Below are positions 20,438-63,350 of a stretch of DNA of 64,000 nucleotides, in pieces. The translations under genes were made by a program, and so were the position numbers. Every line of letters starts with the position of its first letter. Positions within the stretch are counted from its first letter, which is position 1. The notes beneath the pieces are model-generated. The model saw nothing but the letters and a program-made list of their open reading frames with translations, searched no databases and was not told where the DNA came from. The stretch lies in assembly GCF_003696365.1 (NCBI RefSeq), contig NZ_RFFM01000001.1, positions 682,001-746,000 of the forward strand, written 5' to 3'. This DNA is from Stutzerimonas zhaodongensis (GTDB lineage Bacteria > Pseudomonadota > Gammaproteobacteria > Pseudomonadales > Pseudomonadaceae).

Positions 20438-20567
20438 GGCGCTCAGTCGTAAGGACCGTAGCCGAACACGGTCAGGCATCAAGGGGGCGCAAGGACACCA
20501 CGAAGCTTTTCCCGAGGTCAACCGTGGCGATTGACCCGCTCCAAGGCTCTGCGTAGCCTTCACGGGT

Positions 20568-20757
20568 CGAGGTTCTCTGGCGCTGCCAGAGCTAAGAGGG
20601 AACACGGAAAGCCGTGGCTGCCCCCGCAACTGTAAATGACTGACCCTTGGGTGCGCCGCGTAGCTGGCGCGCCAGCCACTGCAACTGACGCGGGAAGGCG
20701 AGGGTAATGGCAGGCGCGCCACGCGTTGCCCGGTCGTGAGCCAGGAGACCTGCCTCG
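20568..20757 (+). promoter_or_regulatory. Cobalamin (AdoCbl) riboswitch upstream of cobW-cobN
   Basis: The B12 box AGCCAGGAGACCTGCC is at 20739-20754. The conserved internal elements AAGAGGGAA and CTGCCCCCGCAACTGTAAA are in order before it. The closing P1 helix pairs CGAGG (20568-20572) with CCTCG (20753-20757). The ATG of cobW is about 108 nt downstream. No clear terminator follows, so translational control is plausible. This element and the divergent cobE promoter fill the 428-bp cobE-cobW gap. Confidence 0.95.
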
Positions 20758-20865
20758 CTACACATTGACAACCGGGCGGGGTGCTCCGGTGGTGCTTGTT
20801 GGCGCACGTCGCCAAGTAGTGTCCGCCTGCCTGCTCATCTATTTCTCGATGCTTGCAGGGCCACG

Positions 20866-21921
20866 ATGAAAACCCTCTCCAAACTTCCCGTCACTATCGT
20901 TACCGGCTTTCTCGGCGCCGGCAAAACCACCTTGCTGCGCCATATGCTGGGCAATGCCGAAGGGCGTCGTATCGCCGTGATCGTCAACGAGTTCGGCGAG
21001 CTGGGCATCGATGGCGAAATTCTCAAGCAGTGCTCCATCGGCTGTAGCGAAGAGGAGGCCAACGGCCGCGTCTTCGAGCTGGCCAATGGCTGCCTCTGCT
21101 GCACGGTGCAGGAAGAGTTCTTCCCGGTGATGCGTGAACTGGTGGCGCGCCGTGGCGACCTTGACCATATCCTCATCGAAACCTCGGGCCTGGCGCTGCC
21201 CAAGCCGCTGGTGCAGGCCTTCAACTGGCCGGAAATCCGTAACGCCTGCACCGTGGATGCGGTGATCACCGTCGTCGACAGCCCGGCGGTGGCCGCCGGC
21301 ACCTTTGCCGCATTCCCCGATCAGGTCGATGCCCAGCGCAAGCTCGATCCCAATCTCGATCACGAATCGCCTCTGCATGAGCTGTTCGCCGATCAGCTGG
21401 CCAGCGCCGATCTGGTCATCCTCAACAAGGCCGACCTGCTGTCGCCAGAGGCATTGGCAGCGGTGCGGGCCGAGGTGGCCGAGGAGCTGCCCGAGGGGGT
21501 CAAAGTCATCGAGGCGCACGGCGGCGAGCTGCCGCTGAACGTGCTGCTGGGCCTGGATTGCGAAACCGAACTGCACATCGAAGGGCGCAAGACCCATCAC
21601 GATCAGGAAGACCATGAAGAGCACGATCACGAAGCCTTCGATTCTTTCTCGGTCGAGTTGCCGCAGGCCGCTGAAGACAGGCTGCTGCAGGCGTTGAAAG
21701 ACGCGGTGGTCAAGCACGGCATCCTGCGCATCAAGGGCTTCGCTGCAATTCCAGGCAAGCCTATGCGCCTGCTGCTGCAAGGCGTGGGGCAGCGTTTCGA
21801 CAAGCACTTCGACCGCCCCTGGCAGGCCGGTGAAGTGCGTACCACCCGGCTGGTCATCATCGGCCAGTCGCTTGACCCAGCAGCGATAGACGCCGAACTG
21901 AACGCGGCACTGGCGGGCTGA
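20866..21921 (+). CDS. cobW: CobW-family metallochaperone GTPase
   Basis: 351-aa G3E GTPase thought to deliver cobalt to the CobN chelatase. Walker A GFLGAGKTTLLRHML is at about residues 13-27. The metal-binding CXCC motif appears as NGCLCCTVQEE near residue 78, and NKADLL is the guanine-specificity motif. A His/Asp/Glu-rich stretch (HHDQEDHEEHDHEAFD) near residue 244 may bind metal. The C-terminal CobW_C domain ends with the TTRLVIIGQSLD block. It is six bases upstream of cobN and under a B12 riboswitch. Confidence 0.95.
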   Translation: MKTLSKLPVTIVTGFLGAGKTTLLRHMLGNAEGRRIAVIVNEFGELGIDGEILKQCSIGCSEEEANGRVFELANGCLCCTVQEEFFPVMRELVARRGDLDHILIETSGLALPKPLVQAFNWPEIRNACTVDAVITVVDSPAVAAGTFAAFPDQVDAQRKLDPNLDHESPLHELFADQLASADLVILNKADLLSPEALAAVRAEVAEELPEGVKVIEAHGGELPLNVLLGLDCETELHIEGRKTHHDQEDHEEHDHEAFDSFSVELPQAAEDRLLQALKDAVVKHGILRIKGFAAIPGKPMRLLLQGVGQRFDKHFDRPWQAGEVRTTRLVIIGQSLDPAAIDAELNAALAG

Positions 21922-21927
21922 CCGGCC

Positions 21928-24900
21928 GTGCATCTGCTGCGCACCCAGCCCGGCCAGCAACTGCCGGCCGACAGCATTGCCGACCTGGGCCAGACGCCTG
22001 GAGACATCGTCGTGCTGTGCACGGGTGACTCGCATCTGTCGTTGCTGGCCGAGGTGGCCGGCCAGCTGCCTGAGGATTACCCCAGCCTGCGGCTGGCGAG
22101 CCCGGCCCAATTGGGCAACAACGCGTCGATAGACTTCTATGTCGAGCAGGTCCTGCAGCACGCCAAGGTCATCCTGATTTCCGTTCACGGTGGCGTCAGT
22201 TACTGGCGCTACGGCATTGAACGGCTGGTGGAGCTGGGCCAGCGCGGCGCCAAGATCATCATGGTGCCGGGCGATGACAGCCCTGATCCTGAGTTGAGCG
22301 AGCTCGGCAACGTGCCGGCCGAGGATAGCCATCGGTTGTGGCAGTTCCTGCGCCAGGGTGGCATCGACAACGCGCGCCAGTTCTACCACTGCATCGCCAG
22401 TCGCTGGTTGGGCCGAAACTATGCCTGGCACGAACCCGAGGCGCTGGCGCGGGTGGCGATCTATCACCCCCATCAGTCATCCGCGTCCTTGGATGATTGG
22501 CAGCGCGACTGGCGAGTGGACGCATCGGTGGTTGGGCTGATCTTCTATCGCACGCAGGTTCAGGCGGCGAATACGGCCTTCATCGACACCTTCTGTGAGC
22601 GGTTGACGGCTCAGGGCCTTAACCCCTTGCCTATCGCCGTGGCCAGCCTGAAGGAGGCGGCTTGCCTCACGCAGGTCGAGGCCTGGCTGGAGCAGAGCGG
22701 CGCTGCGGTGATCATCAATACGACAGGCTTCGCCCAGTCCAGCCCGGACGCTCCAAACCTGCGGCCCTTCCGTCTGGACATCCCGGTGCTGCAAGCCATC
22801 TGCGCCCTGGATAACCACGAACAATGGCTGGCCAACGCTCAGGGCCTGGGGTCGCGAGACCTGGCGATGCATATCGTGCTGCCGGAGCTGGACGGCCGAC
22901 TGATTACCCGGCCTATCAGTTTCAAGGGCCTGGCCTGGCGCAGCGAACGCAGCCAGAGCGACGTGATCTGCTACCAACCGCATCTGCCAGGCATGGACCA
23001 TGTCGCCGAGCTTGCGCAGCGGTGGGCTTGCCTTGCGCGGTTACCTAACGGCGACAAGCGAGTCGCGCTCATCCTGGCCAACTATCCCACCCGTGACGGC
23101 CGCATCGGCAACGGGGTCGGGCTTGATACGCCGGCCGCTGCGCTGAACATCCTTCGCGCACTGCAGGCGCAGGGATACCCGGTGGCCGATCTGCCCGAGA
23201 GCGGCACGGCGCTGATCCATGAGCTACTCGGCGGCGTTACCAACGACCTCGATAACCTCGATTTGCGGCCCTGTGCCCAGAGCCTGACTCTGCAGGAGTA
23301 CCAGGCGTTCTTCGGTGGGCTACCAGTTGCCAACCAGCAGGCGGTGATCGATCGCTGGGGCACGCCCGAGCAGGACCCGATGTTTCGTTCTGGTCGGCTG
23401 ATGATCGCCGGGCTGCGTTTCGGCTCGACCTTCGTTGGCATACAACCGGCGCGTGGTTATCAGCTCGACGCGGCCGCCATGTATCACGACCCCGATCTGG
23501 TACCGCCGCACGGCTACCTCGCGTTCTATGGCTGGCTGCGCATGCGCTACACCGCTGATGCGGTGATCCACGTCGGCAAGCACGGCAACCTCGAATGGTT
23601 GCCGGGCAAGAGCGTTGGGCTGTCCGACTGCTGCTGGCCGGACGTGGTGCTCGGCCCGCTGCCGAATATCTATCCCTTCATCGTCAACGATCCGGGCGAA
23701 GGGGCCCAGGCCAAGCGGCGTACCCAGGCGGTGATCATCGACCACCTGATGCCGCCACTCACGCGCGCCGAAAGTTATGGCCCGCTGCGTGACATCGAGC
23801 GCCTGGCCGACGAGTACTACGAAGCCAGTCAGCTCGACTTGCGGCGCGCGTCCGAGCTGCGCAGCGAGATCCTTGTGCTGGTGCGCGAGGCCAATCTGGA
23901 CCGCGAGCTGGGGCTGCAACTGAGCGACGATCCCAACAGTTGGCTGCCGCAGCTCGATGCCTATCTCTGCGATCTGAAGGAATCCCAGATACGCGATGGG
24001 TTGCACGTCTTCGGCGAGTCTCCCAGCGGACAACTGCGGCGTGACACCCTGCTTGCGCTGCTGCGCATTCCCCGAGGCAACGGGATAGGGGCCAACGCCA
24101 GCCTGTTGCGGGCACTGGCCGATGATCTGGGATTGGATTTCGACCCCATCAACTGTGACATGGCCGCGCCCTGGCTGGGGCCGCGGCCCGAGGTGCTACA
24201 GCGCTGCGATGCCAGCCTCTGGCGCACCCATGGCGACTCCCGGGAGCGGCTGGAGATGCTTGCGCTGGGGCTTATCGACAGCGAGTCGCAGGGCTTCGGA
24301 CCGGCCAGCAGCGAAGTGATCGAGCAGCTGCGTGGGCAGGTCGCGCCAATGCTGGACAGTTGCGGCGAGGAAGAAATGGCGGGCCTGCTGGCGGCTTTGC
24401 AGGGCCGCTTCGTGCCGGCTGGCCCCAGCGGTGCGCCGAGCCGTGGTCGCCTCGATGTGCTGCCGACAGGCCGCAATTTTTTCACCGTCGACGTGCGCAA
24501 CCTGCCCACGCCGACCGCCTGGCGCATTGGAGTGCAAGCCACCGAGCGCCTGCTCGAACGGCATATGCAGGACCATGGCGACTACCTGCGGCAACTCGGA
24601 CTGTCGATGTGGGGCACCGCGACCATGCGAACCGGCGGCGATGACATGGCGCAGGCCATGGCGTTGCTCGGCGTGCGGCCGGTCTGGCAGCCAGGGAGCG
24701 GCCGGCTGGAACGTTTCGAGATCGTGCCGCTGGAAGAACTGGGTCGGCCACGGGTGGACGTCACGTTGCGAGTGTCCGGCTTCTTCCGCGATGCCTTCGC
24801 CAACCTGATTCGCATCTTCGACGAAGCGGTGCAAGCGGTGGCCGATCTCGATGAGCCGGAGGACATGAATCCGCTGTCCGCGCGGGTCTGGCGTGAATCC

Positions 24901-25659
24901 CTCGAGCTTGAGGACGGCGGTCTGGACGAGGCACAAGCGCGGCGTCAGGCCGGCTGGCGCATCTTCGGGTCGATGCCCGGTGCCTACGGTGCGGGGGTGC
25001 AGAACGTCATCGAAGACCGCCGCTGGCAGAGCCGCGAGGACCTGGCTGAGGTCTACCTGAACTGGGGCGGCTATGCCTATGGCAAGGACGACGAAGGCGT
25101 GCCGGCGCGGGCGCGTTTCGCCGAGCGGCTGCAACAGGTACAGGCGGTGCTGCAGAATCAGGACAACCGCGAACACGACATTCTCGATTCCAACGACTAC
25201 TACCAGTTTCAGGGCGGCATGCTGGCCGCCGCCGAAACCCTGCGCAGCGGATCGGTGGCGAGCTACCACGGCGACAATAGTCAGCCGGACAACCCGAAAA
25301 TCCGCAGCCTGAAAGAAGAGTTGGGCAGGGTGGTGCGTTCCCGCGCGGCCAACCCCAAGTGGATCGCCGGCATGAAGCGGCACGGCTACAAGGGCGCCTT
25401 CGAACTGGCGGCCACGGTGGATTACCTGTTCGCCTTCGATGCCACCACCGGGCTGATCGATGATCACCAGTACGCGCTGCTGGCCGATGCCTATGCGCTG
25501 GACCGAGATACCCGGGAGTTCATCCAGCTACACAACCCCGAGGCCCTGCAGGACATCCTCGAACGCCTGCTGGAAGCCCAGCAACGTGGGCTCTGGGAGG
25601 AGCCCGGCGAGTATCAGGAAGCGCTGGAAAATCTGCTGATCGATAGCGAGGAGTCATGA
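21928..25659 (+). CDS. cobN: Cobaltochelatase large subunit CobN
   Basis: Large subunit of the ATP-dependent cobalt chelatase that inserts Co(II) into hydrogenobyrinic acid a,c-diamide. 1243 aa with a GTG start (VHLLRTQPGQQ), 6 nt after cobW. Conserved blocks include VIHVGKHGNLEWLPGKSVGL, IYPFIVNDPGEGAQAKRRTQ and GTATMRTGGDDMAQAMALLG. Length fits CobN (about 1250) better than ChlH. Downstream genes encode ChlI- and ChlD-type subunits rather than CobS/CobT, as in other pseudomonads. Confidence 0.97.
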   Translation: MHLLRTQPGQQLPADSIADLGQTPGDIVVLCTGDSHLSLLAEVAGQLPEDYPSLRLASPAQLGNNASIDFYVEQVLQHAKVILISVHGGVSYWRYGIERLVELGQRGAKIIMVPGDDSPDPELSELGNVPAEDSHRLWQFLRQGGIDNARQFYHCIASRWLGRNYAWHEPEALARVAIYHPHQSSASLDDWQRDWRVDASVVGLIFYRTQVQAANTAFIDTFCERLTAQGLNPLPIAVASLKEAACLTQVEAWLEQSGAAVIINTTGFAQSSPDAPNLRPFRLDIPVLQAICALDNHEQWLANAQGLGSRDLAMHIVLPELDGRLITRPISFKGLAWRSERSQSDVICYQPHLPGMDHVAELAQRWACLARLPNGDKRVALILANYPTRDGRIGNGVGLDTPAAALNILRALQAQGYPVADLPESGTALIHELLGGVTNDLDNLDLRPCAQSLTLQEYQAFFGGLPVANQQAVIDRWGTPEQDPMFRSGRLMIAGLRFGSTFVGIQPARGYQLDAAAMYHDPDLVPPHGYLAFYGWLRMRYTADAVIHVGKHGNLEWLPGKSVGLSDCCWPDVVLGPLPNIYPFIVNDPGEGAQAKRRTQAVIIDHLMPPLTRAESYGPLRDIERLADEYYEASQLDLRRASELRSEILVLVREANLDRELGLQLSDDPNSWLPQLDAYLCDLKESQIRDGLHVFGESPSGQLRRDTLLALLRIPRGNGIGANASLLRALADDLGLDFDPINCDMAAPWLGPRPEVLQRCDASLWRTHGDSRERLEMLALGLIDSESQGFGPASSEVIEQLRGQVAPMLDSCGEEEMAGLLAALQGRFVPAGPSGAPSRGRLDVLPTGRNFFTVDVRNLPTPTAWRIGVQATERLLERHMQDHGDYLRQLGLSMWGTATMRTGGDDMAQAMALLGVRPVWQPGSGRLERFEIVPLEELGRPRVDVTLRVSGFFRDAFANLIRIFDEAVQAVADLDEPEDMNPLSARVWRESLELEDGGLDEAQARRQAGWRIFGSMPGAYGAGVQNVIEDRRWQSREDLAEVYLNWGGYAYGKDDEGVPARARFAERLQQVQAVLQNQDNREHDILDSNDYYQFQGGMLAAAETLRSGSVASYHGDNSQPDNPKIRSLKEELGRVVRSRAANPKWIAGMKRHGYKGAFELAATVDYLFAFDATTGLIDDHQYALLADAYALDRDTREFIQLHNPEALQDILERLLEAQQRGLWEEPGEYQEALENLLIDSEES

Positions 25660-25719: not shown

Positions 25720-26733
25720 ATGCCCGATAGCCATTTCCCCCTCGCCGCCGTGGTCGGAGCCGATGACCTCAAGCTGGCCCTTTGTCTGGCAGCAATCGAT
25801 CCCGCGATTGGCGGTGTGTTGATCGAAGGCCCTCGCGGCATGGCCAAATCGACCCTGGCGCGAGGGCTGGCGGACCTGCTGCCAAGCGGCCAGTTCGTCA
25901 CCTTGCCGTTGGGTGCCAGTGAAGAACGCATCGTGGGCTCGTTGGATCTCGATGCAGCTCTGGGTGAAGGGCGCGCCGAGTTCTCGCCGGGCTTGTTGGC
26001 CAAGGCCGATGGCGGCGTGCTCTATGTCGACGAGGTCAACCTGCTGCCGGATCACCTGGTCGACCTGTTGCTCGATGCGGCGGCCAGCGGCATCAACCAT
26101 GTGGAGCGGGACGGCGTTTCCCATCGGCACCCATCGCGCTTCGTGCTCATCGGCACCATGAACAGCGAGGAGGGCGAACTGCGGCCGCAGTTGCTCGACC
26201 GTTTTGGCTTCAACGTTGCGCTGGACGCGCGGCCACAGCCTGCACAGCGGACGGAAATCGTTCTCCGTCGGCTGAATTTCGATGCCGATCCGCAGCGCTT
26301 TCTATCCTCTTGGTCGGAAGAGCAGGGGGCGCTGCGGGCGCGCTGCCAGGAAGCGCGCGCCCAGCTGCGCGATATTCCGTTGGACGAGGCAGCACTGGAG
26401 CAAATCAGTCAGCGTTGCTTTGCCGCCGAGGTCGATGGGTTGCGAGCTGATCTGGTCTGGTTGCGAGCTGCTCGCGCCCATGCGGCCTGGCGTGGCTCGG
26501 TACGGATCGAGGCCGAGGACATCGATGCGGTGGCCGATTTTGTTCTGCGTCATCGGCAGCAGCAGGCAACGCCGCCTTTACCGCCGCAGCAGCAGCCACA
26601 GCAGCCTCAAGCCAAGGAAGACACCAGCGCTGGTCAGAATGATCAGGGCGCTGGCGACTGGGGGCAGCTGCCGGCCCAGGTTCAACCTGTGGGTGCTCGG
26701 CGTGAACCGCCTCGCTGGTCAAAAAAGCCCTGA
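25720..26733 (+). CDS. chlI: Mg/Co chelatase ATPase subunit (ChlI/BchI-like); short product of a frameshift gene
   Basis: AAA+ subunit that drives metal insertion by CobN, 337 aa from ATG 25720 (25711 or GTG 25699 are possible). Walker A appears as EGPRGMAKSTLARGLA, a GxxGxAKS form typical of ChlI/BchI. LYVDEVNLLPDHLVDLLLDA is Walker B, and GTMNSEEGELRPQLLDRFGF is the sensor region. After residue about 285 it has a Pro/Gln-rich acidic linker (PPLPPQQQPQQPQ) ending GDWGQLPAQ, which is normally the middle of ChlD, not the end of ChlI. The ORF stops three bases after an A_AAA_AAG heptamer. Confidence 0.92.
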   Translation: MPDSHFPLAAVVGADDLKLALCLAAIDPAIGGVLIEGPRGMAKSTLARGLADLLPSGQFVTLPLGASEERIVGSLDLDAALGEGRAEFSPGLLAKADGGVLYVDEVNLLPDHLVDLLLDAAASGINHVERDGVSHRHPSRFVLIGTMNSEEGELRPQLLDRFGFNVALDARPQPAQRTEIVLRRLNFDADPQRFLSSWSEEQGALRARCQEARAQLRDIPLDEAALEQISQRCFAAEVDGLRADLVWLRAARAHAAWRGSVRIEAEDIDAVADFVLRHRQQQATPPLPPQQQPQQPQAKEDTSAGQNDQGAGDWGQLPAQVQPVGARREPPRWSKKP

Positions 26734-26767
26734 GCATCCGCCCACGCAGCGCCTCCGGCGCGGATGC
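26721..26767 (+). other. Programmed -1 ribosomal frameshift signal joining ATPase and VWA ORFs
   Basis: The heptamer A_AAA_AAG occupies 26721-26727, with frame-0 codons TCA AAA AAG CCC TGA. A stem GCATCCGC (26734-26741) / GCGGATGC (26760-26767) is perfect over 8 bp, and its 18-nt loop can form an inner GCC/GGC helix. The spacer from heptamer to stem is 6 nt. A -1 slip enters the frame GCC CTG AGC ATC..., open without a stop to 27413. Programmed frameshifting in chlD-type genes has been reported; assigning it here is inference from sequence. Confidence 0.85.
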
Positions 26768-26786
26768 ACGAGCAGCACCGGGTAGC

Positions 26787-27413
26787 GTGAATGGAGGGCG
26801 GCATGGCGCCAGTCGCGGCGGCGTGTCTGGGCGGATCGACTGGGCCGCGACCTTTATGCTCAACGGCCTGCCGCAGCGCCGCGCTGACCTCGTCATGAGG
26901 CCGCGCAGTCGGCGGGCGGGTGAAGTGTGGTTGGTGATCGTCGATGCCTCGGGCTCGACCCGTCGCCACGGTGCGCTGAGCAAGGCGAAAGGGCTGCTCG
27001 GCGAGGTGTTCGAGCAGGCCCGGCGGCAACGAGTGCGGCTGGCGCTTTTGCGGGCCAACGGCAAGCAAGCCGACTGGGTTTGGCCAGGTCACAAGGTGAC
27101 CGGTGTGCAGCAACAATGGCTGGCTGATCTCGGCGCAGGTGGCGGCACGCCGCTATTGGATGCCTTGCAGCAGGCGGCAGCATGGCAGCGTCGTCGGCAG
27201 CAACTCAAGCCCGCCGAGCAGCATCGACTGCTGGTCCTCACGGACGGCCGCTTGCGTGAGTCGACAGCTCTGGAACCGAGTCTTTGCCCGGCTGTGCTGG
27301 TAGACATCGAGAGCGCACCGATCCGCCTGGGCCGTGCACGGAAACTGGCCGAAGAACTGGGCGCGGAGTATCAGCACATCGACACGCTCGCGACCCTGAA
27401 CAACCCTGTTTAA
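26787..27413 (+). CDS. chlD: VWA-domain part of ChlD-like chelatase subunit, probably translated by frameshift from the ATPase ORF
   Basis: Von Willebrand A domain of the ChlD/BchD type. The MIDAS motif VDASGSTRRHGALSKAKG is near residue 52, and GAGGGTPLLDAL and LLVLTDGRL follow. GRIDWAATFMLNGLPQRR before it is the conserved ChlD junction. The only upstream start is a GTG at 26787 without a ribosome site. The frame is open back to 26727, exactly where a -1 slip from the ATPase ORF would land. The fused product would be about 564 aa (336 + 228), the normal size of ChlD. Independent translation is the alternative. Confidence 0.85.
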   Translation: MNGGRHGASRGGVSGRIDWAATFMLNGLPQRRADLVMRPRSRRAGEVWLVIVDASGSTRRHGALSKAKGLLGEVFEQARRQRVRLALLRANGKQADWVWPGHKVTGVQQQWLADLGAGGGTPLLDALQQAAAWQRRRQQLKPAEQHRLLVLTDGRLRESTALEPSLCPAVLVDIESAPIRLGRARKLAEELGAEYQHIDTLATLNNPV

Positions 27414-27447
27414 ACGACCAACCTTTAGCGCAATGGAGCCAGAACCT

Positions 27448-28218
27448 GTGAAAACACTACTGATCATCGGCATTGGCGCAGGCGATCCCGATTTTCTGAC
27501 GGTCCAGGCGATCAAGGCGTTGAACCGTGTCGACGTGTTTTTCCTGATGGACAAGGGCGCCTCGAAGGACTCGCTCATCCACCTGCGCAAGCATATCTGC
27601 GAGCGCTTCATCGACACGCCGGGGTATCGCTTCGTCGAGGCCGAATGCCCCGAGCGCGTGCGAGGTGTCGCCGACTACCGGGCCAGCGTTGTCGACCTCA
27701 ATCAGGACAAACAGCGGGTGTTCGAGCAGATGGTCCACCGTGAGCTGGCCGATGGTGAGGTGGGCGGCTTTCTGGTCTGGGGTGATCCTGCGCTGTATGA
27801 CAGCACGCTGCGCATCGTCGAGGACATCGTGCAAGCCAGTCCGGAGCCCATCACCTACGAGGTGATCCCCGGCATCACCAGCCTGCAGGCGCTGGCTGCC
27901 AGGCACAAAGTCTGCTTCAACAGCATCGGTCAGGCCTTTCAGGTCATGCCGGCCCGGCGATTGGCCGAGGGCTTTCCTGACGGGCTGGATAGCGTACTGG
28001 TGATGCTCGATGCGCGGGATACCTACTGCCTGTTCGTCGATCAGGAGATGGACATCTATTGGGGCGCATACGTGGGCACCGCGGATGAGGTGCTGATTGC
28101 AGGAAAGGTCGGTGAGGTGGCGGAGCAGATCCGCAGTACCCGCGCCGCGCTGCGCGAGCGACATGGCTGGATGATGGACAGCTACTTGCTACGTCGCCGC
28201 AGCGCTGACGAAGACTGA
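27448..28218 (+). CDS. cobF: Precorrin-6A synthase (deacetylating)
   Basis: Methylates precorrin-5 at C-1 and releases acetate to give precorrin-6A; specific to the aerobic pathway. 256 aa from GTG 27448, chosen because GGAG lies 9 nt upstream; ATG 27433 would contain that site. IIGIGAGDPDFLTVQAIKAL is the methylase signature, and VFFLMDKGASKDSLIHLRK and VWGDPALYDSTLRI are CobF-typical. It follows the chelatase subunits by 34 nt and ends this plus-strand operon. Confidence 0.95.
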   Translation: MKTLLIIGIGAGDPDFLTVQAIKALNRVDVFFLMDKGASKDSLIHLRKHICERFIDTPGYRFVEAECPERVRGVADYRASVVDLNQDKQRVFEQMVHRELADGEVGGFLVWGDPALYDSTLRIVEDIVQASPEPITYEVIPGITSLQALAARHKVCFNSIGQAFQVMPARRLAEGFPDGLDSVLVMLDARDTYCLFVDQEMDIYWGAYVGTADEVLIAGKVGEVAEQIRSTRAALRERHGWMMDSYLLRRRSADED

Positions 28219-28241: not shown

Positions 28242-28892
28242 TCAGGCGGTCGCGAGGGTTTTGACGGTGGTGAACCGGCTGATCAGCGGGTTATCTGCAA
28301 AGCGTTTGAGCGTGCGGACAACCAGGCAGGTGAACAACGGCTCGAGCAGCACAAGCGGCAGGTAGGAAACGGCGAACATCGCCCAATTCTGCAGAGGCGT
28401 GGGTTCGTTACCCAGCGACAGCCAGAAGCCGACCATCAGCACCACGCCGCCGTAAAAGGCTGCGTCGAACTTGACCACTTCGGCCCAGCGAATCACGCGC
28501 CCGCCTTGGGCGAAGAAGTGCCGGCCGAGCAGGCCATGGGCGGCGATCAGCGGCAGGATCAGCGACAGCGAGTTGACCGCCAGGTGCACCAGATCGGACG
28601 GCTCGAACAGCAGCCCTTGCAGCAGCAGGCCAATAGCGAATCCGAACAGCGTCGGCACGAAGCCGAATATCACATAGACAGCCGACGCACCCACGAAATG
28701 CAGTTCCGAGGCGCCGACCGGCATGTGAAAGACCTCCATGAAGATGGAGAAGAACAACGCGGCGAGCAGGGTCTTGACCCAGATGTCGGGGCGCCACATC
28801 AGCTTGGGCAGGAACACGGCCAATGTTGAAACGGCTGCGGCGTTGGCAAAGACGATTTTTGCGGCGTTGAGTACGCCAGGTTCGATATGCAT
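28242..28892 (-). CDS. CbiM-like energy-coupling factor cobalt/nickel permease
   Basis: 216-aa membrane protein with about six helices. The N-terminus MHIEPGVLNAAK, with His2 for metal coordination, and the block FHMPVGASELHFVGAS are the CbiM/NikM S-component signatures. Its likely role is cobalt uptake for corrin synthesis. No CbiN, CbiQ or CbiO partner is adjacent, so it may work alone or with remote partners. A B12 riboswitch lies directly upstream. It converges on cobF, with 23 nt between the stops. Confidence 0.85.
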   Translation of the reverse strand: MHIEPGVLNAAKIVFANAAAVSTLAVFLPKLMWRPDIWVKTLLAALFFSIFMEVFHMPVGASELHFVGASAVYVIFGFVPTLFGFAIGLLLQGLLFEPSDLVHLAVNSLSLILPLIAAHGLLGRHFFAQGGRVIRWAEVVKFDAAFYGGVVLMVGFWLSLGNEPTPLQNWAMFAVSYLPLVLLEPLFTCLVVRTLKRFADNPLISRFTTVKTLATA

Positions 28893-28940
28893 CGTTCTCC
28901 CTCCGAGGGATGCGGGTTAAAGGCGCCGGGATCGGCACGC

Positions 28941-29114
28941 TGATGGCAGGTCTCCTGGCTCACGGGTCAATGTGCACCTGCGTCTTCCCAGCCGATCAGG
29001 CCAGTGACTTCATTTGCAGGTGAACTCGCCGTTCACAGTTGCGGGGGCAGCGCAGGAGTAGCCCGTGGGCGTACCTGCTTCCCTCTTGCCTCTGCCTTTG
29101 GGGCAGAACCATCA
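28941..29114 (-). promoter_or_regulatory. Cobalamin riboswitch upstream of the CbiM-like gene
   Basis: On the minus strand the B12 box AGCCAGGAGACCTGCC is at 28960-28945. AAGAGGGAA and GCTGCCCCCGCAACTGTGA come before it in order. P1 is formed by TGATGG (29114-29109) and CCATCA (28946-28941). The element is about 50 nt before the start codon. It lies between the end of cobJ and the permease gene, so it could also act on read-through from cobGHIJ. Confidence 0.95.
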
Positions 29115-29172
29115 AGCGTCGCTAGGGTAGTGGGTTTATCGGCTTTCGGCACGTCTAAAACGAGGTTTCCGT

Positions 29173-30843
29173 TTAATCGGCAGGGTAACTTCTGGGGGTA
29201 TAGACCCAGTCGCCACCATCCTGCTTGGCAAACCGGCAGGTCTGCGACGAGCCGATGATGACCAGCGTGCGCATGTCCACCTGTTCGGGCGTGAGGTCGC
29301 CAAGCGTGGTGACAGTCAGGGCTTCGGATGGGCGACCGATGTCGCGGCCAAGCACAACCAGTGTTTCCGGTGTGCGGTAATGGCGAAGTAATTCCAGCGC
29401 CCGCCCGAGCTGCCAGGGCCGCGCCTTGGAAATGGGATTGTAGAAGGCCATGACAAGATCGGCCGCAGCGGCGTGTTCCAGACGCTTCTCGATCAGCGTC
29501 CAGGGTTTGAGATTGTCCGATAGCGAGAGCATGCAGAAGTCGTGACCCAGCGGCGCGCCGGCTTTGGCGGCGGTGGCCAGCGCCGCCGATACGCCTGGCA
29601 GCACCTGCAGATCCACGGCGTGCCAGCGGGGGTCGCTTGATGCGTGCAGCGCTTCCAGTACCGCGGCGGCCATGGCAAACACACCGGGGTCGCCGGACGA
29701 TATCACCACAACCCGGCGACCGCTGGCGGCCAGCTCGAAGGCATGGGCTGCACGCTGCAGCTCCTCGCGGTTGTCGCTGCTGTGGCTGACCTGGCCTGGC
29801 CTGAGCGGGCCGGCCATCTTTATGTATGTCTCGTAACCGAGCAGGTCTTGCGCCTCGTCCAGCGCTTGGCGCGCCGCAGGCACCATGAATTCGGGAGCGC
29901 CCGGTCCGAGGCCAATCACCGTCAGCGAGCCGCGGGGCTGACCGATCTGCTTGATGTCGATCGGCTCATCTGCGAGCAATAGCCGTGCGCGCTGGCTGCG
30001 ACTGTGCTGCGCCGGCAATTGCGTGGTGTCGTCGCTGTAGCGGATCGGCAGGCCAAGCTGGCTGGCCACGTGTTGCAGCTCGGTGCTGGACATGAGGTGG
30101 AGCGGTGCGATCAGGCAGGCAAGGCTGTGCGGCGAAAAGCTGGATTCATCGATCAGCTGCTGAACCTCGGTATCCAGTTCCGGGCCAACGCGTTCGACAT
30201 GAATCGCGATCAGCCTGGGGTGGATGCTCAGGGTGCACGCATCGTCCTGCCGGAGCGGGCTGACGGATACCCGGTGTTGCGCTTGCGGGTCGAGCGGCAG
30301 GCTGAGTTCATCCAGCCAGGGCGCCGGACCTTCGACGCGCACAGGCGCACCAGCCAGCAAGTCGCTGACGAACCGCTTGCCTTGCTCCAGATCCGCCAGC
30401 ACGTAACCGGGCGGCGGGGAGAGCAGGCAAGCGCCGAAGCGCAGCTCGCCGCTGGTGGTGATGGCCGGGCTGACCTCCAGTGCGGCGGCGATCTCCCGGG
30501 CCATCCGATTTACGCCTGCCAGGCCGCCGAGCAAGGGCACCACTGCGCTGCCATCCTCACCAACCACCAGTACCGGGGGCTCGTTGTCCTTGTCGCCCAG
30601 TACTGGGGCCAGACTGCGGATCACAATCCCCGTCGCGCACAGCGCGATGATCGGCGTGTTGGCTCGATACAGATCGCGCAGATGCTCGCCAAAGTTATCG
30701 TACGGCCTGTCGGCTTCGACAGCGCGTCCGCTCAGCCCATGAACCTGTGCTCCCGGATAGACGCGCTGTATCCGTCTGGCGGTGTCGAGGGCGGAGGCGC
30801 CAAGTACGACGATGGCGGGTGCGGTAGTTGCGAGGCCGGGCAT
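29173..30843 (-). CDS. cobJ: CbiG (N-terminal/central) - precorrin-3B C17-methyltransferase fusion
   Basis: 556 aa. Residues about 1-310 are CbiG-like: DNFGEHLRDLYRANTPIIAL, CATGIVIRSLAPVLGDK and VPLLGGLAGVNRMAREIA. Residues about 315-556 are CobJ: LTVIGLGPGAPEFMVPAARQ, SSGDPGVFAMAAAVLEAL and LVMAFYNPISKARPWQLG. CobJ methylates C-17 and contracts the ring, converting precorrin-3B to precorrin-4. CbiG belongs mechanistically to the anaerobic route, and its C-terminal domain is separate here as cobE. The gene is 43 nt downstream of cobI and is the last gene of cobGHIJ. Confidence 0.93.
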   Translation of the reverse strand: MPGLATTAPAIVVLGASALDTARRIQRVYPGAQVHGLSGRAVEADRPYDNFGEHLRDLYRANTPIIALCATGIVIRSLAPVLGDKDNEPPVLVVGEDGSAVVPLLGGLAGVNRMAREIAAALEVSPAITTSGELRFGACLLSPPPGYVLADLEQGKRFVSDLLAGAPVRVEGPAPWLDELSLPLDPQAQHRVSVSPLRQDDACTLSIHPRLIAIHVERVGPELDTEVQQLIDESSFSPHSLACLIAPLHLMSSTELQHVASQLGLPIRYSDDTTQLPAQHSRSQRARLLLADEPIDIKQIGQPRGSLTVIGLGPGAPEFMVPAARQALDEAQDLLGYETYIKMAGPLRPGQVSHSSDNREELQRAAHAFELAASGRRVVVISSGDPGVFAMAAAVLEALHASSDPRWHAVDLQVLPGVSAALATAAKAGAPLGHDFCMLSLSDNLKPWTLIEKRLEHAAAADLVMAFYNPISKARPWQLGRALELLRHYRTPETLVVLGRDIGRPSEALTVTTLGDLTPEQVDMRTLVIIGSSQTCRFAKQDGGDWVYTPRSYPAD

Positions 30844-33574: not shown

Positions 33575-33696
33575 GGGATGCATGGTCGCGCACGGTGCAC
33601 CTGTAACCAAAAGACGCGGCGACCAGACCGGGAGAGTTCGTTGAACTCAGTTGGCATCGGTACACCCCGCCCGATGTTGGCACTCGCGACCAGCGT

Positions 33697-33870
33697 CGTC
33701 GGCAGGTCTCCTGGCTGACAGGTCTTCATCATCCGCGGCCTTCCCGGTTTCCCAGTGGCGTGTATGCGGAGGATTCGCTGTTTACAGTTGCGGGGGCAGC
33801 TCGGTCACGATCATCAGATCGCTCCGTATTCCCTCTTAGGCCCTTGGCGTGGTCGCGGCGGGCACCGACG
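33697..33870 (-). promoter_or_regulatory. Cobalamin riboswitch upstream of cobGHIJ
   Basis: On the minus strand the B12 box AGCCAGGAGACCTGCC lies at 33716-33701. AAGAGGGAATACGG and GCTGCCCCCGCAACTGTAAA come before it in order. P1 is CGTCGG (near 33870) with CCGACG (33702-33697). About 120 nt separate it from the cobG start. The rest of the 381-bp gap to cobL holds the promoters of this operon and of divergent cobL; I see no other gene in it. Confidence 0.95.
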
Positions 33871-33955
33871 AAGGCGCTATTATGCCCGCTTTGCCGGACG
33901 ACGCGACAGCCAAGCCTGTCCCGACGAAGGCTTGGCATTGTGATGGAGAGGCGGG

Positions 33956-53311: not shown

Positions 53312-53635
53312 ACCCATCCCTCGTGGCACATATGAAGGTCCGGAGCGTTCTTCCTGATCGTGTCCTTTGTGCTGCGCGTTGGGATCGCAAAAATGCGAGC
53401 AGATCCTGGCTCGGCGTGTCGGTACGAAGTGCGGGAGCGACGTTCCATCCTGATCGTCTTGCAGACGCAAAGGCACAGTGAGCACCTTTTGCGATGGGTA
53501 TGGACAAACAAGCGCAGCGGTAGTTGCGTGGCGTGTTAAATAATGTTTCAGAAAGCGCTCAAGGTTCGAACGGTCGTTTGCCGGCTGCAGAATAAGCGCA
53601 TCTATGGTAAAAACTGCGCCGGGCCTTAAAGGGTC

Positions 53636-53777
53636 CACGTTCTCAGGGCGGGGTGCGATTCCCCACCGGCGGTAATGGCAGTTTTCCTTGCCTAGCCCGC
53701 GAGCGCTTGTCTTCGACAAGGTCAGCAGACCCGGTGTGATTCCGGGGCCGACGGTATAGTCCGGATGAGAGAGAGCG
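53636..53777 (+). promoter_or_regulatory. FMN riboswitch (RFN element) upstream of ribE
   Basis: All RFN boxes are present in order: TTCTCAGGGCGGGGTGCGAT, TCCCCACCGGCGGTAAT, AGCCCGCGAGCGC, GACCCGGTGTGATTCCGGGG and CCGACGGTATAGTCCGGATG followed by AGAGAGA. It ends about 123 nt before the riboflavin synthase ATG. The 588-bp gap also contains an AT-rich stretch near 53535-53560 (GTGTTAAATAATG), a possible promoter; otherwise I see nothing. Confidence 0.97.
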
Positions 53778-53899
53778 GGATGCCTCGACGGGCGCCATTC
53801 GTGCGCGCGTCTACTCCCTATCGATCTGCAGCGCCCTGTTTTATCCAAAACAGGAGTTCGTCATATGCATCGTTTCAACTGCCTTCCACGGGAGGCCGC

Positions 53900-62845: not shown

Positions 62846-62953
62846 CAGGTTCAATCCTCAAAAGATCGTACTTTTGAGGAGGGCAGAAACAAGCGCGGGG
62901 ACTGGCGGGCAGCAGCGCTTGACGGTGCTGCCCTCCGCAACACCAGTCGAATC

Positions 62954-63126
62954 CGCGAGGCCGGTCTCCGGACTCTCGACGCGCATCACGCTCACCTTCC
63001 CATGCCGTAGCACAGTGGCGTTCGAGCGGACGGCGATCCTACGGATCGCGGTCGATTACCGTTGCGGGGGCAGCGCCGGCCTTGCTCATGGAGCGCACCG
63101 GCTTCCCGTTTAATGCAGACCTCGCG
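62954..63126 (-). promoter_or_regulatory. Cobalamin riboswitch (variant B12 box) upstream of btuB
   Basis: The minus strand reads GAGAGTCCGGAGACCGGCCT at the B12 box, a common variant of AGCCAGGAGACCTGCC. GCTGCCCCCGCAACGGTAA comes before it. P1 pairs CGCGAGG with CCTCGCG (62954-62960 with 63120-63126). The element fills part of the 505-bp btuB-dxs gap. Between 63127 and 63350 I see nothing certain beyond the promoter expected for btuB. Confidence 0.92.
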
Positions 63127-63350
63127 GTCGTGCACACCTTGGCGGATAAGAAAATCGCGCGAACCTTACGGGCTGCGTGGGTGAAAGACAAGCAAAGCGC
63201 TTGGCGGCCGGATGTCGCAGGGCGCGCGTAGCGTAGTGTCCGCGTGTAGCGTGTTAGGCAGCTCGGCAACTACGGGAGGCCTGACGCGTAGCCGGTTGTG
63301 CTGGCTACCGCAGTGCTACAGGCGCGGGTTGCCGTCCGCGCCTGCGCTGA

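Follow-up and report, generated by a model that had tools for sequence, protein, structure and literature searches.

The stretch of DNA analysed here, 64,000 nucleotides of the genome of Stutzerimonas zhaodongensis and referred to throughout as 'the window', contains a cluster of vitamin B12 genes. A cobalamin riboswitch is followed on the plus strand by cobW, by cobN, by a gene that appears to be read in two frames, and finally by cobF (Table 1). Beyond cobF, on the opposite strand, lie further genes of the aerobic B12 pathway (cobJ-type, cobI, cobH-type and cobG). With CobN, CobF, CobW and a cobalamin riboswitch nearby, the locus most likely specifies a cobalt chelatase rather than a magnesium chelatase. 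The surroundings include several other elements. The window holds four cobalamin riboswitches (20553-20771 on the plus strand; 28928-29128, 33684-33884 and 62942-63157 on the minus strand) and one FMN riboswitch (53635-53780, plus strand). A CbiM-like cobalt transporter protein (28242-28892, minus strand), which scores under the cut-off of each of the seven families listed, is encoded directly downstream of a cobalamin riboswitch, and in a single ORF (29173-30843, minus strand) a CbiG-like N-terminal part is fused to a CobJ methyltransferase.

Table 1. Features of the B12 cluster and of the putative frameshift gene (positions in the window)
Feature	Position	Strand	Basis or remark
Cobalamin riboswitch upstream of cobW	20553..20771	+	Rfam RF00174, 91.1 bits
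cobW	20866..21921	+	TIGR02475, 538.5 bits (cut-off 332)
cobN, large cobalt chelatase subunit	21928..25659	+	TIGR02257, 1688.7 bits (cut-off 822)
Whole putative frameshift gene, predicted 564-aa trans-frame product	25720..27413	+	Translation; family scoring of the fused product
0-frame ORF, AAA+ ATPase (ChlI-like small subunit, 337 aa), Pro/Gln-rich linker included	25720..26733	+	ORF; Pfam, NCBIfam and structure matches
Slippery heptamer A_AAA_AAG, -1 phase	26721..26727	+	Window letters; 207/209 analysable relatives
0-frame stop TGA, one codon past the heptamer	26731..26733	+	Stop there in 209/209 analysable loci
Hairpin directly after the stop	26734..26767 (arms 26734-26741, 26760-26767)	+	Inverted repeat, alignment, covariation, window comparison
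-1 frame, VWA domain, MIDAS motif DASGS	26727..27413	+	C-terminal half of ChlD-like medium subunit; 228 codons + stop
cobF	27433..28218	+	TIGR02434, 328.6 bits (cut-off 195.8)

Read from the ATG at 25720 (GTG 25699 and ATG 25711 are other possible starts of the ATPase ORF), the 0 frame yields a protein of 337 aa with a computed mass of 36.5 kDa, and passage into the -1 frame would yield one of 564 aa and 61.1 kDa. The ATPase ORF matches the Pfam families AAA_5, AAA_lid_2 and Mg_chelatase, and its best matches among solved structures are ChlI/BchI. The NCBIfam models that fit the 0-frame product best are TIGR02442 and TIGR02030, both under their cut-offs (for TIGR02030, BchI-ChlI, 324.3 bits against 466.95). 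The fused product scores best with TIGR02442, putative cobaltochelatase, at 480.5 bits against a cut-off of 779.45, and is likewise under the curated cut-offs of TIGR02031 and TIGR02030. Its predicted architecture is that of ChlD and the medium subunits: an AAA+ domain, a Pro-rich linker, and a VWA domain with a MIDAS motif. Among 207 loci from the family, described below, the AAA+ part invariably carries the Walker B sequence VLYVDE together with a Walker A sequence, GPRGMAKS or GPRGTAKS, and the MIDAS motif is present in the VWA part of 206. The P-loop, with Ala before Lys, is GPRGMAKS in 200 of the 207 relatives, the remaining 7 having GPRGTAKS; in the window it lies within 25720-26733.

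The two frames meet at a run of six A (26721-26726) followed by G (26727), which in the 0 frame is read TCA AAA AAG CCC TGA. The hairpin that follows has a 5' arm, GCATCCGC, that is the perfect reverse complement of the 3' arm, GCGGATGC (8 bp), and a spacer of 6 nt separates it from the heptamer. From the junction the -1 frame remains open as far as 27413, into the VWA domain with its MIDAS motif. A preliminary description, made from the letters of the window, had set out this junction, the two product sizes (337 and about 564 aa), the linker within the ATPase ORF and a stop-free continuation at -1 into the VWA ORF; translated anew and re-read for heptamer, stop, repeat and spacer, the region agrees with it throughout, and at the junction base for base. 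We rejected the notion that the heptamer is unusual by itself: AAAAAAG occurs 4 times in the window, against 2.46 expected. Nor does folding of the single sequence give the window's hairpin excess stability (z = +1.17; folding is as good or better in 175 of 200 shuffles). The heptamer count being ordinary and the hairpin no stabler than shuffled sequence, the case rests on comparison. What is above chance at this junction is its position and conservation, and not the heptamer or single-sequence folding alone.

For that comparison we used a sample of 398 genomes of the Pseudomonadaceae, in which VWA matches at E<=1e-6 occur in 285, 14 of them weak and 271 strong (E<=1e-30). Junctions were requested from 212 of the 271 strong-match genomes, and 209 were analysable; two genomes in which the junction is cut by contig ends (G079 and G180) were left out, as was G290, and L005-L013 are repeats of other loci. 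A_AAA_AAG precedes the 0-frame stop by one codon, and the VWA ORF is at -1, in 207 of the 209 loci; the VWA ORF is at -1 to a ChlI-like AAA+ ORF in 208. These counts refer to loci related by descent and not to independent events. The same arrangement was present in 132 of 132 junctions covered by a first pass. The two exceptions are L228, which has A_AAA_AAA, also at -1, and L229, which has CAAAAAG and a disrupted frame. L229 (genome G383), the sole analysable locus without a slippery heptamer, comes from a genome in which CobN gives two matches; the cluster there may be decaying, or its assembly may be error-prone. Within the genus, the VWA part was found in 11 of 56 genomes, and every one of the 11 has a single codon between AAAAAAG and the 0-frame stop, with the VWA ORF at -1, at VWA identities down to 29-34%. 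The nearest named relatives by VWA identity are S. kunmingensis (97%) and S. stutzeri A563/77 (83%).

Our tables of codons, starts, motifs and hairpins cover the 207 loci preselected for heptamer and stop, so both are invariant there, and the unselected figures are those over 209. Of these 207, 205 have precisely six A in the run, and two (L024 and L030) have eight. Elsewhere in the same genes, AAA accounts for 694 of 2168 Lys codons; the junction stays AAA AAG. The preliminary description had asked whether heptamer and stem are conserved while the flanks vary, and this is what the alignment displays: a heptamer kept in 207 of 209 loci and a covarying stem, amid flanking positions that are variable. 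One locus, L156 (genome G288), has a -1 frame that leaves the family pattern soon after the linker, as if the VWA part carried an insertion.

The stop codon is kept as well. It occurs one codon after the heptamer in all 209 loci, as TGA, TAG or TAA (128, 75 and 4, respectively, in the 207 heptamer loci), and the -1 frame reads across it mostly as CTG AGC, CTA GGC or TTA GGC, or CTA AGC. A G-ending first codon before a G-starting second one would turn the stop into TGG and open the 0 frame, a combination found in none of the 209 loci. In 75 of the 207 loci the -1 codon at the stop is a rare A-ending one (CTA in 59, TTA in 12 and GTA in 4); CTA and TTA together make up 355 of the 6525 Leu codons in the VWA part of these loci. 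Because the 0-frame stop is kept, and in these 75 loci by way of rare A-ending codons, the pattern suggests that production of the predicted short product matters, with the reservation that loci related to one another do not count as separate cases.

Conservation extends to the hairpin. Our alignment (A2) comprises 129 of the 157 distinct junctions; the most divergent hairpins are omitted from it, and two rows, L014 and L015, look misaligned. A stem of 10 pairs is formed in 92.3% of its cells, versus at most 58% for slid versions of the same stem. With shuffled partners 89.9% of cells are still paired, which means that conserved letters account for much of the figure, but not one of 500 shuffles reaches 92.3%. 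The cells changed on both sides of the stem number 26, against a shuffle mean of 5.2, and 5 pairs show double-sided change, against 2.5 in shuffles (9 of 500 as high). RNAalifold recovers the outer six pairs from the aligned junctions unaided; many rows fail to form the innermost pairs (e.g. column pair 22-42 in 48 of 129). A helix of at least 6 pairs, no more than 4 nt from the stop, is predicted in 203 of the 207 loci, compared with 3582 of 11004 control windows (33%) from the same genes, and the mean folding energy is -20.3 kcal/mol at junctions and -12.1 kcal/mol in control windows, which were not matched to the junctions in G+C content. Both loci with eight A are among the 4 that have no strong predicted helix. 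Since both belong to the genus of the window and look alike, the longer run and the missing helix may represent one event. Upstream of the heptamer, the window contains no 6-base Shine–Dalgarno-like 5' stimulator, and a dnaX-like stimulator was rejected for it on this account. Such an element occurs in 23 of the 207 relatives (GAGGTG in 22, AGGAGG in 1), mostly in similar sequences.

Out-of-frame ORFs are what indel errors typically yield, and a base missing from the assembly, or a true mutation in a pseudogene, might have split a normal chlD at this point. An arrangement common to 207 of 209 loci of different genomes, with the stop in all 209 and the MIDAS motif in 206 of 207, argues strongly against this, and we regard its probability as negligible. 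That the run and the hairpin serve antisense transcription, on the minus strand, as an intrinsic terminator seems hardly more credible. A terminator-like site is indeed called there (26744-26731, minus strand), but 4 such sites in the region compare with 4.3 expected in shuffles, for which reason this candidate was set aside; the U run is, besides, set apart from the conserved stem by the spacer, and a terminator would leave the reading phase and the kept stop codon unexplained.

Two further explanations carry somewhat more weight, and both are very improbable. The VWA part could be a gene of its own, initiated independently or by coupling at GTG 26787 or another codon, with the six A incidental. 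Azotobacter's copy is annotated in RefSeq as two genes, GTG 26787 is the first ATG, GTG or TTG in the VWA frame past the upstream stop and begins an ORF to 27413, and among the 206 loci with a recognisable MIDAS motif, on which all our start counts are based, 171 have at least one such codon before the VWA core. The other 35, however, lack all three codons in the -1 frame ahead of the core; an ATG is available in 35, and a start of any kind preceded by a Shine–Dalgarno-like 4-mer in 27. No canonical start is conserved across the 206, in keeping with the earlier remark that the VWA ORF has no convincing start. The first residues of the -1 frame, K, K and L, lie upstream of any VWA start in the window and show no variation among the 9 sequences aligned, and 207 of 209 loci keep the heptamer in phase. 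Transcriptional slippage at the A run, by which a base would be added to some of the mRNAs and the frames joined, is slightly less probable again. The junction is a homopolymer, and longer runs occur in relatives (A8 in L024 and L030, 2 of 207; A10 in L239). Transcriptional slippage needs neither a conserved G, nor a reading phase, nor a hairpin, all of which are superfluous to it and all of which are found here. The run is exactly six in 205 of 207 loci, below the length (n > 7) given for transcriptional slippage in PMC3711429.

Programmed -1 frameshifting at A_AAA_AAG, by which this chlD-type gene would produce two predicted subunits of a cobalt chelatase, is in our estimate the correct reading with a probability of about 0.92. 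The preliminary description had proposed such frameshifting for a chelatase gene, and the family-wide comparison of heptamer and stem lends support to it. A single reading start would serve both subunits. Part of the ribosomes would read AAA AAG CCC TGA, stop, and release the 337-aa AAA+ small subunit (ChlI-like). Others, held by the hairpin, would slip back one base, the two lysine codons re-pairing as AAA AAA, and would go on to complete the 564-aa medium subunit (ChlD-like). Together with CobN, the two subunits would insert cobalt, in a ratio to each other set by the frameshift rate. One gene could thus supply two subunits, their ratio fixed by the recoding signal, and annotation as two genes, as in Azotobacter, would hide the medium subunit. 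More tentatively, and on balance we doubt it, the junction might be a compact tuned module (slippery run, obligatory 0-frame stop one codon on, hairpin abutting the stop) in which lineages set the proportion of the subunits by balancing the length of the run against the strength of the hairpin and by gaining a Shine–Dalgarno-like element. The hairpin might also respond to metal, a speculation raised in PMC5009743.

Mechanism, gene and signal are already known, and in print for Pseudomonas, so the value of the present work is that of a larger comparative test. Frameshift chelatase genes of Pseudomonas, known as fs-chlD, are reportedly the subject of a 2020 article by Antonov in Mol Biol Evol. 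The magnesium chelatase cluster of Antonov (2013; PMC3711429) comprises 23 genes with -1 frameshifts from six genera, Pseudomonas included; three of its members, tested as reporter cassettes in E. coli, shifted frame at rates of 63, 40 and 10%, and the cassettes had runs of 7, 9 and 11 A, none of them six. Atkins (2016; PMC5009743) describes strong purifying selection on A_AAA_AAR, in Pseudomonas among others, and Kuznetsov (2022; PMC9227772) gives Pseudomonas aeruginosa as an example of an fs-chlD genome. The precedent is therefore closer than in the preliminary description, which had referred to chlD-type frameshifting in general. What we add is the counting of junctions in 209 loci, the persistence of the 0-frame stop and the covariation of the stem, which supplies exact changes for a reporter test.

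As in the fs-chlD genes of Pseudomonas described in these sources, the window has an A_AAA_AAR site, AAA+ and VWA ORFs in -1 relation, and a predicted structure downstream. The P. protegens stem printed in PMC5009743, with arms GCATCCGCC...GGCGGATGC, is of the same hairpin sequence type as the window's. Unlike them, the present copy belongs to a Stutzerimonas genome, and where PMC5009743 calls the sequence of the structure 'not strongly conserved', the outer stem here is strongly conserved in most aligned junctions. E. coli dnaX shares the heptamer A_AAA_AAG, the downstream hairpin and the production of two proteins from one gene (PMC3711429), but it is an unrelated gene in which the shift leads to the shorter product rather than the longer, and the Shine–Dalgarno-like stimulator of dnaX-type cassettes is missing from the window. 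In CobS/CobT and ChlI/ChlD, as in the products predicted here, the small subunit is AAA+ and the medium subunit AAA+ plus VWA; those pairs have separate genes, whereas one gene is predicted for both here.

Genomes with fs-chlD are further alike, in the published accounts, in having cobN and no separate gene for the small subunit, and the window's genome conforms to this. Its matches to TIGR02030 are the frameshift gene (in two stretches) and three weak ones of 29.6, 25.5 and 20 bits, so that the frameshift gene is its sole strong ChlI-like match. Across the family, CobN exceeds its cut-off in 273 of the 398 genomes and is present in 271 of the 271 with a strong VWA match. CobN genomes without a strong VWA match are G103 (70% complete), G202 (CobN near a contig end, VWA match weak), and G059 and G174, which have the only two CobN matches at E ~1e-160 rather than <1e-290. 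Among the candidates scored, 5 per genome, ChlI was found at E<=1e-110 in none of the 398, a threshold at which the Synechococcus control is still detected. In the 56 congeneric genomes CobT is not found at E<=1e-10, nor does any CobS match exceed its cut-off; weaker CobS matches of ~133 bits occur in 4.

Outside the family the picture is more varied. A survey of the class (Gammaproteobacteria, 369 genomes) gave 19 matches besides the window's own genome. The -1 arrangement with an A run at the junction was present in five, two of which read AAAAAAG CCC TGA; eight are in-frame fusions whose junctions have no stretch of six or more A nearby; another is disrupted, and in the remaining five similarity to the ATPase is weak or absent. 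The outside-family locus L239 has a run of ten A. It might be supposed that absence of ChlI goes with frameshifting and its presence with in-frame fusion. This rule did not hold outside the family: no separate ChlI was found at E<=1e-40 in 8 of 8 in-frame genomes (L237, L238, L240-L242 and L245-L247), and one of the five frameshift genomes outside the family, G718, has a second, strong ChlI match. Because these eight in-frame genomes have no separate ChlI at that threshold, a separate small subunit is not obviously required everywhere. In Azotobacter chroococcum, the two genes of RefSeq are an 'AAA family ATPase' and a 'VWA domain-containing protein', the latter begun at a CTG upstream of the heptamer. 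A plasmid of this species bears the cluster cobN, ATPase, VWA, cobF with the same signal (L256, 3501-3578).
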